Positions 95 to 6,288 of a DNA stretch of 6,742 bases are shown here, in pieces. Each line of letters opens with the position of its first letter. Within the stretch, counting starts at the first letter, position 1. Source of the DNA: Anaerolineae bacterium (lineage in GTDB: Bacteria; Chloroflexota; Anaerolineae; JAFGEY01); assembly GCA_016929205.1 (NCBI GenBank), contig JAFGJF010000652.1, positions 1 through 6,742 of the forward strand, given 5' to 3'. The notes below the pieces were generated by a model that saw only the letters and a list, made by a program, of their open reading frames with translations, was not told where the DNA came from and searched no databases. Both the position numbers and the translations under genes were made by a program.

Positions 95-135
95 GTGACG
101 ATATAACACATCGTGACACTGTTCTATATCGTCAC
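95..135. repeat. 11-bp perfect inverted repeat at the end of the flippase gene
   Basis: GTGACGATATA at 95-105 is the exact reverse complement of TATATCGTCAC at 125-135, with a 19-nt loop. The right arm contains the flippase stop codon (134-132). As RNA it would form a stem-loop right at the 3' end of the operon's last visible gene. No run of U follows on either strand, so it is not a canonical intrinsic terminator. It could stabilise the mRNA 3' end, cause weak termination, or act at DNA level as a palindromic operator. The rest of the gap (39-94) is AT-rich and probably contains the promoter or leader of the next gene, but I could not place convincing -35/-10 boxes. Confidence 0.5.
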
Positions 136-1709
136 CCACCCATTCGCCGCGCCTGTCGTTGAAAAATGGCCAAACCCCGCCGCAGAATCTGCAGTACCAC
201 ATTGACCTCTTGACGTGAAAACGTCCCGACTGCAAATAATACGATCAGATAAATTGCGCTTCCCACTAGAAACAATGGCAGCATAGACCAGGCTCGCAGC
301 AGCCACAAAATCAGCGCCATTGCAGCCCCAGCGACGGCAGGCTTGAGCAAAAGCTGGAAATGAACGGGATACGACCGAGACTTCGCGGGCGCTTCCGTTT
401 GCACCTTACGTACCAGGTAAAGATACAGCACACCGAAAAAAAAGAGTTCTGTGAAAATAGTCGTCACCGCAGCCCCGACGAAACTGTACACCGGCAGAAC
501 AAACAGATTGACAACAACGTTAAAGACCGATGACAAAGCCACGGCTACTGAACGCTCAGGTTGGTACCCACTCGCCGTCAAGGCAGTCGCCAACGTATTG
601 TTGACAAAGCGCAGCGTCGTGACCGTAGCCAGCATTCTGAAAACGGGAGCCGAAAACGCAAACTCGGCGCCATACAGCATATTCACCAATGGATCGGCCA
701 GCCCCACACACAATACAGACAAGGGAATGCCCACCACAACCTGATATTTGATCGCGCCATTGATATAGGTGATGATGCGTTCTGCCTGCGACTCGAACTC
801 TCGCGCCATCAACGGCATCAAAGCATTATTGATTGTTCGCGCAAAGACGTTAAAACGATAAAAAATCCCGGTGGCAGCTTCATAAAGTCCCGACGCAACA
901 GTACCATGATAAGATGTCAACATAACGACGTCAATGCGTAAATAAATCGGTCCCAGCGCCATATTGACCGCATAAGGCGTTGTGAGTCGCAGCAACTCGC
1001 GAGTAGAGATGCCGGCAGATGGTCCAGAGACAAGCCGTCCGGGTCGCAACGAGCGGCCGATCAATCTGCGATAGAGCGGCATGGCAACCAAGAGTCCGGC
1101 CAAACGCGATGGCACATAGACCACAAACACCCACATAAATGGCAAACGGAAAAACAGGACGATGGCACCAACGATCAGAAAAGTCAATTCCTGCACAATC
1201 ATGACGATGGATACCATCTCCATCCGCTCAAAACCATTAAAAACCCCACAAGCGATCTGTGCCATACCATCGAAAACCAACGCCACGCCAGCAAGTGCAA
1301 CAGCGATACAGGTCGAAGAAGGGCGTCCCAGCAAAACTGCCGTGATCGCCATCAGGGGAATGGTCGCTACCCCGGCAACGAGCACGATCGTCATCGCCTT
1401 TTCGGCATAATGATGCGCCTGATCGCGATGCGTAGCCACTTCTCGAATGATTGCTGCAGGCAGCCCCAGAGTAGCAAGAAAAGTAAACATGAGGCTCAAG
1501 CTCAGCACAAAAGCAAATTCCCCGACTTTTTGAGGGCCAAATAGGCGGCCCACAATGATTGTGATCAACAACTTGGATACCGTCGTCGAAGCCAAGGCAA
1601 CGATTTGCGCCACAACGTTCTTGCCAACACGAGCAACCGTGTGGTGCGTTTGCTCTAGCATTGGCTCGCTGTTTGGTTGATCCGCCGGCCAATGTGGTTG
1701 TTCACCCAT
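132..1709 (-). CDS. Wzx-like oligosaccharide flippase (MOP superfamily)
   Basis: This is a polytopic membrane protein of 525 aa, the usual length for Wzx/MATE-like polysaccharide transporters. It is expected to flip undecaprenyl-linked oligosaccharide units from the cytoplasmic to the outer face of the membrane. The hydrophobic pattern allows 12 to 14 helices, beginning near residues 30-54 and ending near 475-495. Family hallmarks include an N-terminal helix followed by G-R-L-F-G-P at 54-59 and a mid-protein segment with R258 and D260 followed by G-L-Y-E-A-A. There is also L-Y-G-A-E-F at 345-350. The start chosen is the ATG at 1709-1707, which overlaps the acyltransferase stop by 8 nt and has AAAGAG (1722-1717) 7 nt upstream. 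A GTG at 1736 extends the frame by nine codons but lacks a ribosome site, and an ATG at 1661 is also possible. The overlap suggests translational coupling. The family is confident; the substrate cannot be read from sequence. Confidence 0.9.
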   Translation of the reverse strand: MGEQPHWPADQPNSEPMLEQTHHTVARVGKNVVAQIVALASTTVSKLLITIIVGRLFGPQKVGEFAFVLSLSLMFTFLATLGLPAAIIREVATHRDQAHHYAEKAMTIVLVAGVATIPLMAITAVLLGRPSSTCIAVALAGVALVFDGMAQIACGVFNGFERMEMVSIVMIVQELTFLIVGAIVLFFRLPFMWVFVVYVPSRLAGLLVAMPLYRRLIGRSLRPGRLVSGPSAGISTRELLRLTTPYAVNMALGPIYLRIDVVMLTSYHGTVASGLYEAATGIFYRFNVFARTINNALMPLMAREFESQAERIITYINGAIKYQVVVGIPLSVLCVGLADPLVNMLYGAEFAFSAPVFRMLATVTTLRFVNNTLATALTASGYQPERSVAVALSSVFNVVVNLFVLPVYSFVGAAVTTIFTELFFFGVLYLYLVRKVQTEAPAKSRSYPVHFQLLLKPAVAGAAMALILWLLRAWSMLPLFLVGSAIYLIVLFAVGTFSRQEVNVVLQILRRGLAIFQRQARRMGG

Positions 1710-2796
1710 CAGTCGACTCTTTGCTTTCAGGCACACCCATACGCAACAGCAAATCCGGACGCCGAAGATCGCGCCACAAAGCCGGGTATGCCAACAATCT
1801 CTGTTCGAGGCGGCTCATATAGTGTTGCAGATCCTGGGCAATGTCCGCCGCCAATGTTCCTTCGCTTGTCCACTCCATAGGTTCGATCAAAACACACTGA
1901 CCACGTCCAGTTTTCGACGGTGTCAAACCAGCATCCTGTGCCGGAACCCCAGACTTGCCTCGGACTGCCCCGCTCGCTGGAATAGCAGTAAACACACTGA
2001 CCCCCAACCGTTTGGCCGTTTGGATGCCACTGACGTCCAAATAAACGGTGCGACTCAGAAACTGCACCGGCACCAGGCCAGGAAAACAATCCTGATCGCG
2101 AACGAAATATTGATCTGGCAGCAGGTAAACAATATCCATCCCGCTTTCATTGTCTACCAAGACCCTGGACAGCTCAGTCTGCGATGCCTGGCTCGGGTCA
2201 ATGGCGATCATTCTGATCCGTTCATTCAAACGTTGCACCCTCGGCCAGTAAAACTTGTTGTACCATCGGCTGGTTTGCGGAGGTGGGGCCTGACTGCCGC
2301 CATATCCTACCAACCAGGTTGGATAGCCTCGCGCTGCTAACGCGGCTGCAACTGCATAGCCATACACACCATAATGAGCCCCCAGCAGCAAAACTGGCCT
2401 GCTCTGCTTTTTCAATTCGTCCAGATAGTGCAAGCCCTCAACCTGTACTAGATGGACCATATGCTCGTCGCGTAACGAGGGCAGAAAATGAAGGATGAGC
2501 GCATTCCAACTGGACATGACGAGTTGCGCGTGCACCATCTCTTCAAGATCCCGACGACGATCGTCGCCCTGGTCAAACAAGCCCCGCAAATGATTCCGCA
2601 CGCGACGTACCGATCCTCGGTTGCTCTTGTGCAAAACCATGCCCGCCAACCAGCTCATTTGGCGAATGGCCTTGACTCGTACTGCGGGCGGAAGAATGTT
2701 CAGTCCGGTCGACAACGCCAGAGCAGCCAGGTATTCGATATCCCCCGGAACCATCAACGGAGGGGTACGCACACTTGATAGGGCCTGATCTCTCAC
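1702..2796 (-). CDS. LpxL/HtrB-family acyltransferase with altered active-site motif
   Basis: The protein (364 aa from the chosen start) resembles the LpxL/HtrB lysophospholipid/lipid A acyltransferase family. Matches are an N-terminal helical segment, E-G-L-H-Y-L at 120-125, the strand V-L-L-L-G-A-H-Y-G at 135-143, and L-L-P-D-Q at 225-229. There is also V-P-V-Q-F-L at 242-247 and a C-terminal Y-P-A-L-W near 337-341. In active members the His (here H141) is followed five residues later by Asp/Glu (H-x4-D/E); here that residue is G146. Activity is therefore doubtful, or a different residue is used. No clear N-terminal membrane anchor is seen. The start is GTG 2796-2794, because AAGGAGG sits 7 nt upstream. 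The in-frame ATG at 2853 would add 19 residues but has only weak ribosome-site sequence. By context it may acylate or bind the glycan or its lipid carrier; that is inference. Confidence 0.78.
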   Translation of the reverse strand: MRDQALSSVRTPPLMVPGDIEYLAALALSTGLNILPPAVRVKAIRQMSWLAGMVLHKSNRGSVRRVRNHLRGLFDQGDDRRRDLEEMVHAQLVMSSWNALILHFLPSLRDEHMVHLVQVEGLHYLDELKKQSRPVLLLGAHYGVYGYAVAAALAARGYPTWLVGYGGSQAPPPQTSRWYNKFYWPRVQRLNERIRMIAIDPSQASQTELSRVLVDNESGMDIVYLLPDQYFVRDQDCFPGLVPVQFLSRTVYLDVSGIQTAKRLGVSVFTAIPASGAVRGKSGVPAQDAGLTPSKTGRGQCVLIEPMEWTSEGTLAADIAQDLQHYMSRLEQRLLAYPALWRDLRRPDLLLRMGVPESKESTDG

Positions 2797-2803
2797 AACC
2801 TGG

Positions 2804-2810
2804 CCTCCTT
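2804..2810 (-). promoter_or_regulatory. Strong Shine-Dalgarno that decides the acyltransferase start
   Basis: The minus strand reads AAGGAGG here, a full anti-Shine-Dalgarno match, 7 nt before GTG 2796-2794. It is the strongest ribosome site in the window and lies inside the longer frame that starts at ATG 2853, so it favours the shorter protein. Confidence 0.7.
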
Positions 2811-2887
2811 GCGCAATGTCTTTTGCATCGTCACCCCAATTTGAAATCGCCATTTGCAGCCAACTCTATACACACCGTGTTGGCACC

Positions 2888-4699
2888 TTATGAACGACGG
2901 ACTTTGCCAAACCAACTCAGGCGCTTCCACTTGCGACGGATTGTTCGCAACGTGTCCATCCTGAAAATCGTGCGGAGACTTGGCTTTTGGTCGAGGTTTG
3001 TCTGTGGGCTGGTATCGTCCCCCGGCATCCGCCTCGTTGTCTGGCGTCGAGTCCGTCGTACGTCAGCCAGGTAAGCATTGTAAACCAAACCGCGACGCTT
3101 CATCTTGACCTTTGTCAGCACAACACCTAACACAGTCGCACCAACCCTTTGGATGATCTCACACGCCTCCAAGGCAGCTTGCTGAGAAGTGCGCTTTGCT
3201 TCGACCGTCAAGATTACCCCATCCACTTTGGTCGCCAGAACTGCAGCATCGGTTACGGCCAACACGGGCGGTGCATCCAGAATAACCAAATCTGCATTCC
3301 GCGCGATCTCGGCCAAAACCAGTTCCATCTGTTTCGAGTTCAAACGCTCTGAAGGATTGTCAGAGGCAGAACCGCTGGTGATCAGATACAGATTATCAAC
3401 AGGTGTGCTCAACATAGCCCCATACACGTCTCGCACATCGCCGGACAAGAGATCTGTCAATCCTGAGCACGCAACTGTGTCCTCTAAAGCCAGCTTTTGC
3501 TGACTGGCGAGATCGACACCGAGCAAATGATGCAATTTGGGAGAATAGAGATCCGTATCAACCAAGACCACCTGCAGCCCCGCACGGGCGCACAAAACGC
3601 CCAGTTCAGCAACCACGGTTGTGCCACCCGTTTTGGGTTCTACAGCGGCGACCAGTAACGTCTTTAGCGATTGGTCACCGGCAACAAACCGAATGTTGGT
3701 GCGCAGCACACGATACGCTTCTGAAACAAAAGAGCGTGGAGCCACTGATGTGACCAGGCCAGACACACCAATCGCACCAGGCTTGTTGCTTGCCCTTTTG
3801 CGGTGCCTCCTCATTGCAGCATATTCTGGGTGTCGCAGCTTGGGAATCGTGCCCAAGGCCGGCAAGGACAGGGCACGTTCCACGTCATCACCTGTTTCAA
3901 AAGAATCGTCCAGGTACTCGACCAAAAACGTCAACCCTACGCCGAACACGAAACCGGCAAAAGCTCCCAAAAATGTATAAATGGGTATATTGGGCCGGAT
4001 CGGCGTCGTCGGTGTAATGGCAGGCTCGATCACCGTGACATCCAGCAATTGGGCCTGGACGAGCCGGATATTCAAGAATGTCTCCAACAAGCTGACATAG
4101 GTGAGCTGTTGATTCGTTAGATTTGTCTCGATGAGATTGGCCTCGTCCTCCGTCAACAGACCGGACGACATACGCGCCTTTTGCAGGTCCGACTGTGTCT
4201 TTTCGAGTAACTCTTTCAAGATCGTCATCTGCGACACCACGTCCCGCTCCAGAGCGACGATGCTCTGCAATTGCTGCTCCGTATTGTGCGAAGAAACGAA
4301 TGTGAAGACGATCTCGTTTGCAATATCGCTGGCCTGCTGCGCATTTGTATATTGTACGGTCAATTCGAGCAACTGCGTTCCAGGGATCAACTCGGTGCCC
4401 AGCATATCCGCAACGTCATCCGGTGCCAGATCCAAACTTAGATTGGCGATCACGATCTCTAGCAGCGGTCTGGCTTTGAGCAATTCGCTATACGTCATCG
4501 CCAGATCTTCACCCGTGGCAATAGAAGTCTGGTTCAAAGGCGCATTTTGAGATGGGTTGACCATCATCAGCACCCTGGCCTCGTAGATCGATTTCATATT
4601 CCGGCTCGCCACAAAAACAAGGACGGCAACCACCACCGTGCCCGCAACCACCAGCCATAGTCGTTTCCAGATAATGTCGAGGATTTCTCCCAATTCCAT
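2888..4699 (-). CDS. Wzz-type polysaccharide co-polymerase fused to a degenerate BY-kinase domain
   Basis: This 603-aa membrane protein belongs to the chain-length determinant/tyrosine autokinase class that controls polysaccharide polymerisation and export. The Wzz half has M-E-L-G-E-I-L-D-I-I-W at the N terminus, a first membrane helix at about 14-31 and an extracytoplasmic helical region with coiled coil around 140-220. A Pro-rich stretch (227-239) precedes the second helix (about 240-261). The cytoplasmic half carries S-E-A-Y-R-V-L-R-T-N-I (326-336), so the oligomerisation motif E-x2-R-x2-R is intact (E327, R330, R333). Walker A' V-L-V-D-T-D-L is at 378-384 and Walker B V-I-L-D-A-P-P at 472-478. 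Walker A reads P-K-T-G-G-T-T (355-361) where P-G-E-G-K-S/T-T is expected, so the catalytic Lys position is G359. Only Y540 and Y543 stand where a Tyr cluster is usual, followed by an Arg/Lys-rich tail (548-603). The start is the ATG at 4699; the upstream GTG at 4741 adds 14 residues derived from a duplication. Confidence 0.88.
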   Translation of the reverse strand: MELGEILDIIWKRLWLVVAGTVVVAVLVFVASRNMKSIYEARVLMMVNPSQNAPLNQTSIATGEDLAMTYSELLKARPLLEIVIANLSLDLAPDDVADMLGTELIPGTQLLELTVQYTNAQQASDIANEIVFTFVSSHNTEQQLQSIVALERDVVSQMTILKELLEKTQSDLQKARMSSGLLTEDEANLIETNLTNQQLTYVSLLETFLNIRLVQAQLLDVTVIEPAITPTTPIRPNIPIYTFLGAFAGFVFGVGLTFLVEYLDDSFETGDDVERALSLPALGTIPKLRHPEYAAMRRHRKRASNKPGAIGVSGLVTSVAPRSFVSEAYRVLRTNIRFVAGDQSLKTLLVAAVEPKTGGTTVVAELGVLCARAGLQVVLVDTDLYSPKLHHLLGVDLASQQKLALEDTVACSGLTDLLSGDVRDVYGAMLSTPVDNLYLITSGSASDNPSERLNSKQMELVLAEIARNADLVILDAPPVLAVTDAAVLATKVDGVILTVEAKRTSQQAALEACEIIQRVGATVLGVVLTKVKMKRRGLVYNAYLADVRRTRRQTTRRMPGDDTSPQTNLDQKPSLRTIFRMDTLRTIRRKWKRLSWFGKVRRS

Positions 4700-4721
4700 A
4701 CAACACTCGTTTCTCTGTCTT

Positions 4722-4761
4722 TCCTGCGGAGCGACGATCACTCCTGCGGAGCGACAATCAC
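4722..4761. repeat. 20-bp tandem duplication spanning the membrane-fusion protein stop codon
   Basis: Positions 4722-4741 and 4742-4761 are consecutive 20-bp copies differing at one base (G at 4736, A at 4756). On the minus strand, copy 4761-4742 encodes the C-terminal V-I-V-A-P-Q-(E) of the membrane-fusion protein. Because 20 is not a multiple of three, the next copy is read two bases out of phase and at once supplies the TGA stop (4740-4738). The second copy in turn encodes V-I-V-A-P-Q in the frame of the co-polymerase gene, just ahead of its ATG. The single mismatch argues against a simple assembly artefact. Confidence 0.9.
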
Positions 4762-6288
4762 TTGCCCTTCCTCAAGCCCTTCGACGATCTCGATCCGATC
4801 ATCGCCTCTCACTCCAATTTTGATATCCACACGGCGTTGCTGTTCGCCCTCCTGAACCATCACAAACTGACGATCCTGAAAGGACCGGATAGCTTGCGGC
4901 GGCAGCCATAGCACGTCATCCTTTTCCTGCAACACGATCGTGACCCGAGCCAGCGTACCAATAGTGAGATCGTCATACCCTTGACCGTCGTCCTCCAGGC
5001 TAATCCGCACGGAACTGGAAGACCCTGTCGAACCGTCCGCACTACCACAGGTACCGTACGGGTAGGGCAGACAGCGGATCGTGCTAGACCAGGTCCGTCC
5101 CGGATGCGTATCCAGCGTCACCGTCGCCTTTTGTCCCTCATAGAGCGCTTGCACTTGCTTATCGGTAAGATCGGCGCTCACCTCGAGTGTCGACGGATCG
5201 GCAACCACGATTCCGCCCCGGAACGCTTCGATCAAACGACCTGCATACAAAGATAGCGAAACTATTTCACCATCTATTGTCGCCAAAATCCGGCCATCGC
5301 TCACAGACTGCTGTAGACGCTCCAGTGCCAGCTCGGCCTGATCCACATCATTGATCAACACCGAATCAACACCCTTTTCGAGGTCTTCTTCCAACCAGTC
5401 CAATTCTTGTTGCGCACGCTTTATCTCCAGAGCCAGCAGAGGGTCCACTCCCTTTTGCAACTGAGCCAGTTCGGCCTCCGCCTGCTTGACTGCAATTTCC
5501 TGGATCTTGATATCATGCTGGTAGACCGCTTCATCGGCAACGGCCTGATCATACTGTGCCTGGGCCGCCTCCAGGACCCACTCTGCTTGCTGCACTTCAC
5601 GCGCTGCCGCGTCACGCACTTCTTGCGGTTCCCAGGGACGATCGAGCGCTTCCTTGTAGGCAATTTCTGCTCGTTGTACCATATCCTGCGCCTGTGCCAC
5701 TTGCACGCCTGCGCTGGCAATCGTAGCATCATACGTAGCCTGCAACGCCAGTGTTCGCGCCAGTTGCTCCCGCGCCAGGATAAGCAGCGTCTCGTTCTGC
5801 TCGATCTGATACGCATTCGTATCCTCTGCGAGCATTGATCTCGTTTTGGCGACCTCCAGATTCAGCCTGGACGCCACGATTTCGCGTGCAAGAGCATCTT
5901 CAGCATCGGACAAACGTAGTTGTGCCGAATTCAGTGCCACCTCGGCTTGTGCGATCTGATTCAGCAAATCATCCATCTCGAGCTCGGCCAATAGATCGCC
6001 CTGCTTGATGCGATCACCGGGCTCGACGTACACCTGCCTCACATAACCCGAGCTTTTAAAATACAGAGTCACCCCTTCGACTGGAGAAACTCGGCCAGCA
6101 AACTGCTGTAATCTGACCACCTTGCCTCTCTGCACCATAAAAGTAGAATCCGCCAGTATAGGAGAAGCCGCAGGAACCGTCGCCGTCGATGGCGGTTCAG
6201 TTCCTTGACACCCCACGACAAACACAAGCACACATATGCCTACAAGCAGCCGATACAAGTTGACTGCACATTGTCGAAACAACATCAT
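4738..6288 (-). CDS. HlyD/MacA-like membrane-fusion lipoprotein (periplasmic-adaptor type)
   Basis: This 516-aa secreted adaptor has a hydrophobic signal segment (about 11-26) ending in the lipobox V-V-G-C, with C27 as the likely lipidated residue. A Thr/Pro/Ser linker follows. The first half of a lipoyl-like domain is at about 64-104 (V-Y-V-E-P-G-D-R-I-K-Q-G-D-L-L). A long Ala/Gln/Glu-rich coiled coil at about 105-330 is followed by the second lipoyl half (332-365), a beta-barrel region (366-455) and a membrane-proximal domain ending G-L-E-E-G-Q-V-I-V-A-P-Q-E. Such proteins normally link an inner-membrane ABC or RND pump to the outside. Here no permease or ATPase is adjacent and the next gene is the co-polymerase, suggesting a role in glycan export or envelope bridging. 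The coiled coil repeats a K-G-V-D segment (279-282 and 305-308). The barrel carries a Ser/Gly-rich insert (415-426) beside C406 and C414. The start has GGTGGGA 6 nt upstream; an adjacent second ATG is equally possible. Confidence 0.9.
   Translation of the reverse strand: MMLFRQCAVNLYRLLVGICVLVFVVGCQGTEPPSTATVPAASPILADSTFMVQRGKVVRLQQFAGRVSPVEGVTLYFKSSGYVRQVYVEPGDRIKQGDLLAELEMDDLLNQIAQAEVALNSAQLRLSDAEDALAREIVASRLNLEVAKTRSMLAEDTNAYQIEQNETLLILAREQLARTLALQATYDATIASAGVQVAQAQDMVQRAEIAYKEALDRPWEPQEVRDAAAREVQQAEWVLEAAQAQYDQAVADEAVYQHDIKIQEIAVKQAEAELAQLQKGVDPLLALEIKRAQQELDWLEEDLEKGVDSVLINDVDQAELALERLQQSVSDGRILATIDGEIVSLSLYAGRLIEAFRGGIVVADPSTLEVSADLTDKQVQALYEGQKATVTLDTHPGRTWSSTIRCLPYPYGTCGSADGSTGSSSSVRISLEDDGQGYDDLTIGTLARVTIVLQEKDDVLWLPPQAIRSFQDRQFVMVQEGEQQRRVDIKIGVRGDDRIEIVEGLEEGQVIVAPQE

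Follow-up and report, generated by a model that had tools for sequence, protein, structure and literature searches.

Polysaccharide co-polymerases help build long surface sugar chains, and the current model holds that they must alternate between phosphorylated and unphosphorylated states. Can such a protein work with a dead kinase? The question is raised by a gene on the minus strand of a 6,742-nucleotide stretch of Anaerolineae bacterium contig JAFGJF010000652.1, analyzed here at full length and called the window. The gene encodes a polysaccharide co-polymerase (PCP) with Pfam matches to Wzz, GNVR, CbiA, and AAA_31. Wzz, GNVR, and a C-terminal P-loop domain of the bacterial tyrosine kinase (BY-kinase) type thus lie in a single chain, the arrangement that places the protein in the PCP-2a group. 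Judged from its sequence, the protein probably (about 75% by our estimate) combines a PCP-2a co-polymerase that still works, in a polysaccharide pathway dependent on Wzx, with a fused BY-kinase domain that has lost catalysis and become a pseudokinase.

Loss of the Walker A lysine

An earlier note on this DNA had read the nucleotide-binding loop as P-K-T-G-G-T-T, with glycine in place of the Walker A lysine, and both the codons and an alignment of 304 rows (214 proteins and 90 loci) bear this out. On the minus strand, positions 3637-3617 read CCC AAA ACG GGT GGC ACA ACC, which encode residues 355-361 in numbering from the ATG start. Alignment with solved chains placed residue 359 on the Walker A lysine of CapB, a position where the K55M mutant (2ved) and a Wzc chain (9xgv) carry Met. 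Across three successively larger sets, lysine was found here in 118 of 120 distinct proteins, 213 of 215 rows, and 302 of 304 rows. These values give the local frequency of lysine rather than that of all BY-kinases, as rows were picked by similarity to the window protein or to the protein P0017 and include the near-copies P0021 and L001. The only rows lacking the lysine were the window protein (Gly) and P0017 (Thr), the latter from a different contig.

This pair was not joined by a wider pseudokinase clade: in protein searches that each scored ~8000 candidates, P0017 alone stood beside the window protein among the best 120 of 1324, 815, and 956 matches. In a class-wide sample, 374 of 396 genomes gave some match; identity exceeded 40% only in G001 (61%) and G216 (48%) among the matches listed, and the lysine was kept in all 60 further matches from this sample.

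Erosion of other kinase motifs

Walker A', Walker B, and the E-x2-R-x2-R ring motif had likewise been described as kept. This holds for Walker B and the ring motif, whereas Walker A' retains both aspartates (D381 and D383) but has lost the arginine of DxDxR (R385Y). With the tyrosine cluster also gone (see below), three marks of an active BY-kinase are missing and two remain. Because of these motif losses, catalysis has probably been lost. The fold is kept in the predicted model while the catalytic residues and the tyrosine tail are gone, the combination by which a BY pseudokinase is recognized. The earlier proposal of a pseudokinase scaffold is thereby upheld, on predicted fold and sequence, in preference to its alternative of an ATPase with rewired chemistry.

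To place these changes in context, we considered 75 sites at which conservation reached 95% or more across 61 canonical rows. Of these, 11 are broken in the window protein, in the kinase half (T351A, S352A, K359G, N365E, R385Y, F393L, P446S, P447D, and L452R) and outside it (D117Y and Y208F). P0017 breaks six, all in the kinase half (D342G, G358D, K359T, D383N, P447N, and N448D), and the median for 54 canonical clade rows is one. A leave-one-out count (75 to 80 sites per row) gave 7 to 12 broken sites, through gaps, for three fragments, and 12, 8, and 8 for the distant rows P0051, P0056, and L012; the window protein has the highest count of any gap-free clade row. P0017 is distinguished by the place of its changes (P-loop Lys and Gly, Walker A' Asp) and not by their number. 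The P-loop, Walker A', and PPNPSELL segments account for most of the broken sites in both proteins: these segments hold 21 of the 75 sites, 8 of the 11 window changes, and 5 of the 6 P0017 changes, although they were picked after the changes were known and p-values for the enrichment are descriptive only. Both proteins retain E327, R330, R333, D381, D475, and P478.

Divergence from the clade consensus follows the same division. Over co-polymerase residues 1-250, it is 0.272 for the window protein and 0.260 for P0017, against a canonical median of 0.249; over the kinase half, it is 0.374 and 0.405, against 0.233. The kinase-to-co-polymerase ratio ranks P0017 first and the window protein second of 56.

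Paired loss of the C-terminal tyrosine run

A second loss, which the earlier note had not mentioned, concerns the C-terminal tail. At least two consecutive tyrosines are found there in 211 of 212 Lys-bearing rows with a tail. The exception is P0039 (478 amino acids), whose tail seems to be out of frame past the kinase core. The window protein and P0017 lack such a run, with only two isolated tyrosines apiece, set in a Y-x-A-Y context. The phospho-acceptor tyrosine run and the ATP-site lysine were lost together; that one pair of proteins lacks both speaks for a genuine shift in function. The window tail is long, at ~70 residues compared with 30 in P0017 and 34 in P0005, and is modeled with helices at 538-554 and 583-598 (block pLDDT, the predicted local distance difference test score, 54-70). 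The first predicted helix (block pLDDT 65-70) is a candidate parallel to the tail helix of EcpK, a pseudokinase discussed below; the canonical control P0021 was modeled with a shorter one (510-516, pLDDT ~54).

Origin within a clade of canonical kinases

The window protein and P0017 (534 amino acids, 62% aligned identity, both frames intact) are sisters. Support was 100/99 in the full tree (64 rows), 100/99 after removal of the P-loop, Walker A', PPNP, and tail columns (63 rows), and 99/99 with the co-polymerase half alone (61 rows). Their neighbors P0004, P0007, and P0008 (98/95 in the 64-row tree) all carry the lysine, and the pair is nested among canonical kinases. Named relatives are labeled mainly as Chloroflexota, Chloroflexi, or Anaerolineae, and the partial sequence P0128 as Candidatus Eisenbacteria. 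Long-branch attraction between two fast kinase domains is unlikely: the two still group together when only the co-polymerase half is used, and their end branches there measure 0.31 and 0.22, compared with a median of 0.2. The column-stripped and co-polymerase-half trees drew a warning of long branches meeting, which concerned the distant row P0051 paired with nearly every other row; P0051 was kept in.

A single loss of the lysine is the simplest account, and the differing replacements (G and T) are compatible with two. The earlier note had conceded that normal loops in all close homologues would suggest a sequencing error or an isolated mutation. In numbers, that situation is nearly what we found; yet because the sister protein also lacks the lysine, the change marks a small clade rather than a lone mutation, and the tyrosine run is missing from both members.

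Proposed function

Under the pseudokinase reading, the window protein would not autophosphorylate. Its cytoplasmic ring, if formed, would be held by E-x2-R-x2-R contacts without a tyrosine tail, and polymer length would be controlled without a phosphorylation cycle. We infer a working co-polymerase ring because the frames are intact, divergence of the other half is near normal, and the gene cluster is conserved. By analogy with the CapB K55M mutant, which retains ADP-Mg, the window protein may still bind nucleotide; binding would be less likely in P0017, where D383 and G358 are also lost. Cycles of binding and unbinding have been proposed for EcpK and HfsB (PMC12004946).

Several observations weigh against this reading. 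Kinase-null Wzc drastically lowers capsule in Escherichia coli, according to an excerpt of PMC11986026, and a co-polymerase with a dead kinase is therefore not necessarily a working one. The source genome may also encode an active BY-kinase or phosphatase beyond the window. The six broken sites of P0017 are not unusual, being matched in number by P0040, P0050, P0124, and P0127, and P0127 shares with it D342G and a change at P447 (P447F). P0007, from the neighbor group, carries the lysine and yet ranks third in divergence ratio (1.28); rapid evolution of the kinase half thus extends beyond the Lys-less pair, may predate the loss of the lysine, and could be early decay. The clade comprises two sequences only, and P0017 is known here as a predicted protein alone.

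Alternative explanations

A protein with no activity of its own might instead serve as a non-catalytic subunit of a mixed ring, joining an active BY-kinase encoded elsewhere through E-x2-R-x2-R and tuning it. The retained ring motif is consistent with such a partnership, G001, a related genome, contains a further match of BY-kinase type (45%, query residues 328-545), and a role of this kind is suggested for inactive CapB1 in an excerpt of PMC3795738. We nevertheless consider it improbable: the window protein is the sole co-polymerase of the window, at the place of the canonical one in L001, and the authors of the EcpK study suggest that BY pseudokinases of polysaccharide pathways are independent of active BY-kinases (PMC12004946). 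Somewhat less probable again is a decaying gene that lost its kinase first and is now vanishing as a whole, as the fast kinase-half divergence of both sisters and their strongly unequal tails might suggest. Both sisters read through, however, at the identity given above, whereas without selection ~0.049 stops per amino-acid-changing base change would yield about a dozen over the ~250 changes on the window end branch (a rough product of 0.46 per column and 546 columns). Near-median divergence of co-polymerase residues 1-250 and retention of the ring motif and Walker B in both sisters also argue against decay.

It appears highly improbable that the protein is an ATPase or kinase whose chemistry has been rewired so that K356 or some other residue does the work of the Walker lysine. 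The window protein does retain G358, T360, D381, D383, and D475, and both sisters have K356, but K356 occurs alongside K359 in 13 rows, including the near relative P0004 (PKAGK) and the near-copies P0021 and L001, and we reject it as the substitute put forward in the earlier note. Nor does it fit the deviant Walker register. We take the signature lysine of that group to be MinD K11; model residue 345 pairs with residue 2 of the 3q9l chain (end points only, an ungapped register being assumed), which puts the signature lysine on E354. G358 and D383 are moreover lost in P0017, and the tyrosine run is gone. Finally, the window protein is one member sequence on one contig, which would suit an assembly or sequencing artefact. 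We give this negligible weight: GGC mismatches AAA/AAG at all three codon positions, ten more conserved sites are altered, and the sister on another contig shows the same double loss, so the change is not a single-base error.

Comparison with known systems

The preferred reading, a fused pseudokinase, has precedents. The window protein resembles Wzc of E. coli and CapAB of Staphylococcus aureus in the order of its Wzz, GNVR, and P-loop domains, predicted fold, E-x2-R-x2-R, and Walker B, and differs in lacking the Walker A Lys, the A' Arg, and the tyrosine run; CapAB consists of two separate proteins and the window protein of one chain. PssP2 of Rhizobium leguminosarum was judged a non-kinase without a Y-cluster and with a role in exopolysaccharide chain length, according to an excerpt of PMC4182512. 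As described there, it likewise carries its Wzz, GNVR, and AAA domains on one polypeptide and has no tyrosine cluster, but Walker A, A', and B are all reported missing, whereas the window protein keeps Walker B and both A' aspartates; this comparison is by description.

EcpK of Myxococcus xanthus and HfsB of Caulobacter crescentus are BY pseudokinases without catalytic residues or a Tyr-rich tail (PMC12004946), absences shared by the window protein. Each is a separate protein that partners a co-polymerase lacking a kinase domain, whereas the window domain is fused; EcpK also lacks several fold elements, and the window protein keeps the predicted fold. Fused BY pseudokinase co-polymerases such as SMc01795 are credited to Cuthbertson et al. 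in an excerpt of PMC12004946, and the window protein is like them in joining both parts in one polypeptide. The four examples named in that excerpt are proteobacterial by species name, whereas the window loss is nested in a Lys-bearing, mainly Chloroflexota-labeled clade. A literature search on co-polymerase tyrosine kinases of Chloroflexi listed a single paper, which deals with metal resistance in a pit lake. Fused (PssP2 and others) and stand-alone (EcpK and HfsB) BY pseudokinases are already in print; to these the window protein adds an origin nested among relatives that carry the lysine and are probably active kinases, together with the joint loss of lysine and tyrosines.

More tentatively, and with rather more doubt than belief, we suggest that the pair records a natural, independent switch, seen at its midpoint, by which a co-polymerase that cycled through phosphorylation came to do without it: the lysine and tyrosine run were lost together once, the ring motif and Walker B are kept, and other clade members look like active kinases. 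If true, the switch would be a natural side-by-side experiment on phosphorylation cycling of the octamer. A branch without the lysine or the tyrosine substrates, with a co-polymerase half near the usual divergence, offers a matched pair for testing the need for the phosphorylation cycle. The case also carries a warning for annotation. The window protein matches TIGR01007 (NCBIfam, "polysaccharide biosynthesis tyrosine autokinase") at 137.4 bits against a cut-off of 108.05, although its sequence makes it very probably no kinase; P0017, without catalytic residues, passes too (139 bits).

Gene features and neighborhood

Features of the window are collected in Table 1. Six relatives share the start site (MEL or VEL) of the 603-amino acid co-polymerase. 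A GTG at 4741 overlaps the adaptor stop (4738-4741) and, lying 14 codons ahead of the start typical of the family, would give 617 amino acids. Predicted helices 14-33 and 238-263 were judged transmembrane by eye.

Table 1. Coordinates of genes, domains, and motifs in the window
Feature	Position	Strand	Remarks
PCP-2a polysaccharide co-polymerase with fused putative BY pseudokinase domain	2888..4699	-	603 aa from ATG
Membrane/periplasmic co-polymerase half, residues 1-263	3911..4699	-	Wzz and GNVR matches
E-x2-R-x2-R ring motif (E327, R330, R333), kept	3701..3721	-	E-R-R in 300/304 rows
Degenerate Walker A, P355-K-T-G-G-T-T361, Lys359 to Gly	3617..3637	-	Relatives P-x-x-G-K-S/T
Degenerate Walker A', D381-T-D-L-Y385-S-P387, Arg to Tyr	3539..3559	-	Arg in 297/304 rows, His in 6
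Degenerate GPxPPNPSELL segment (GSASDNPSERL), residues 443-453	3341..3373	-	P446S, P447D, L452R
Walker B ILDAPP, residues 473-478, kept	3266..3283	-	Sequence alignment
C-terminal tail without tyrosine run, residues 535-603	2891..3097	-	Lone Y540, Y543; basic stretches
HlyD/RND-type adaptor, upstream gene	4738..6288	-	49% identical to L001 counterpart
LpxL-like acyltransferase, downstream gene	1702..2853	-	23.8 bits vs cut-off 22.3; 56% identical to L001 counterpart
Wzx-type flippase	132..1736	-	Polysacc_synt 112 bits; 20% identical to L001 flippase at same place

L001, a Chloroflexi bacterium contig, has the same gene order as the window, and its co-polymerase is 57% identical. Both carry a Wzx-type flippase, and no Wzy was found among the five window proteins scanned. 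A response-regulator gene is truncated by the upstream edge of the window. At 20% identity, against 49-57% for the adaptor, co-polymerase, and acyltransferase (window 132-6288 compared with L001), the flippase looks as if it had been swapped. In both the window and L001, a gene resembling lipid A acyltransferases (LpxL type) lies within the polysaccharide cluster.
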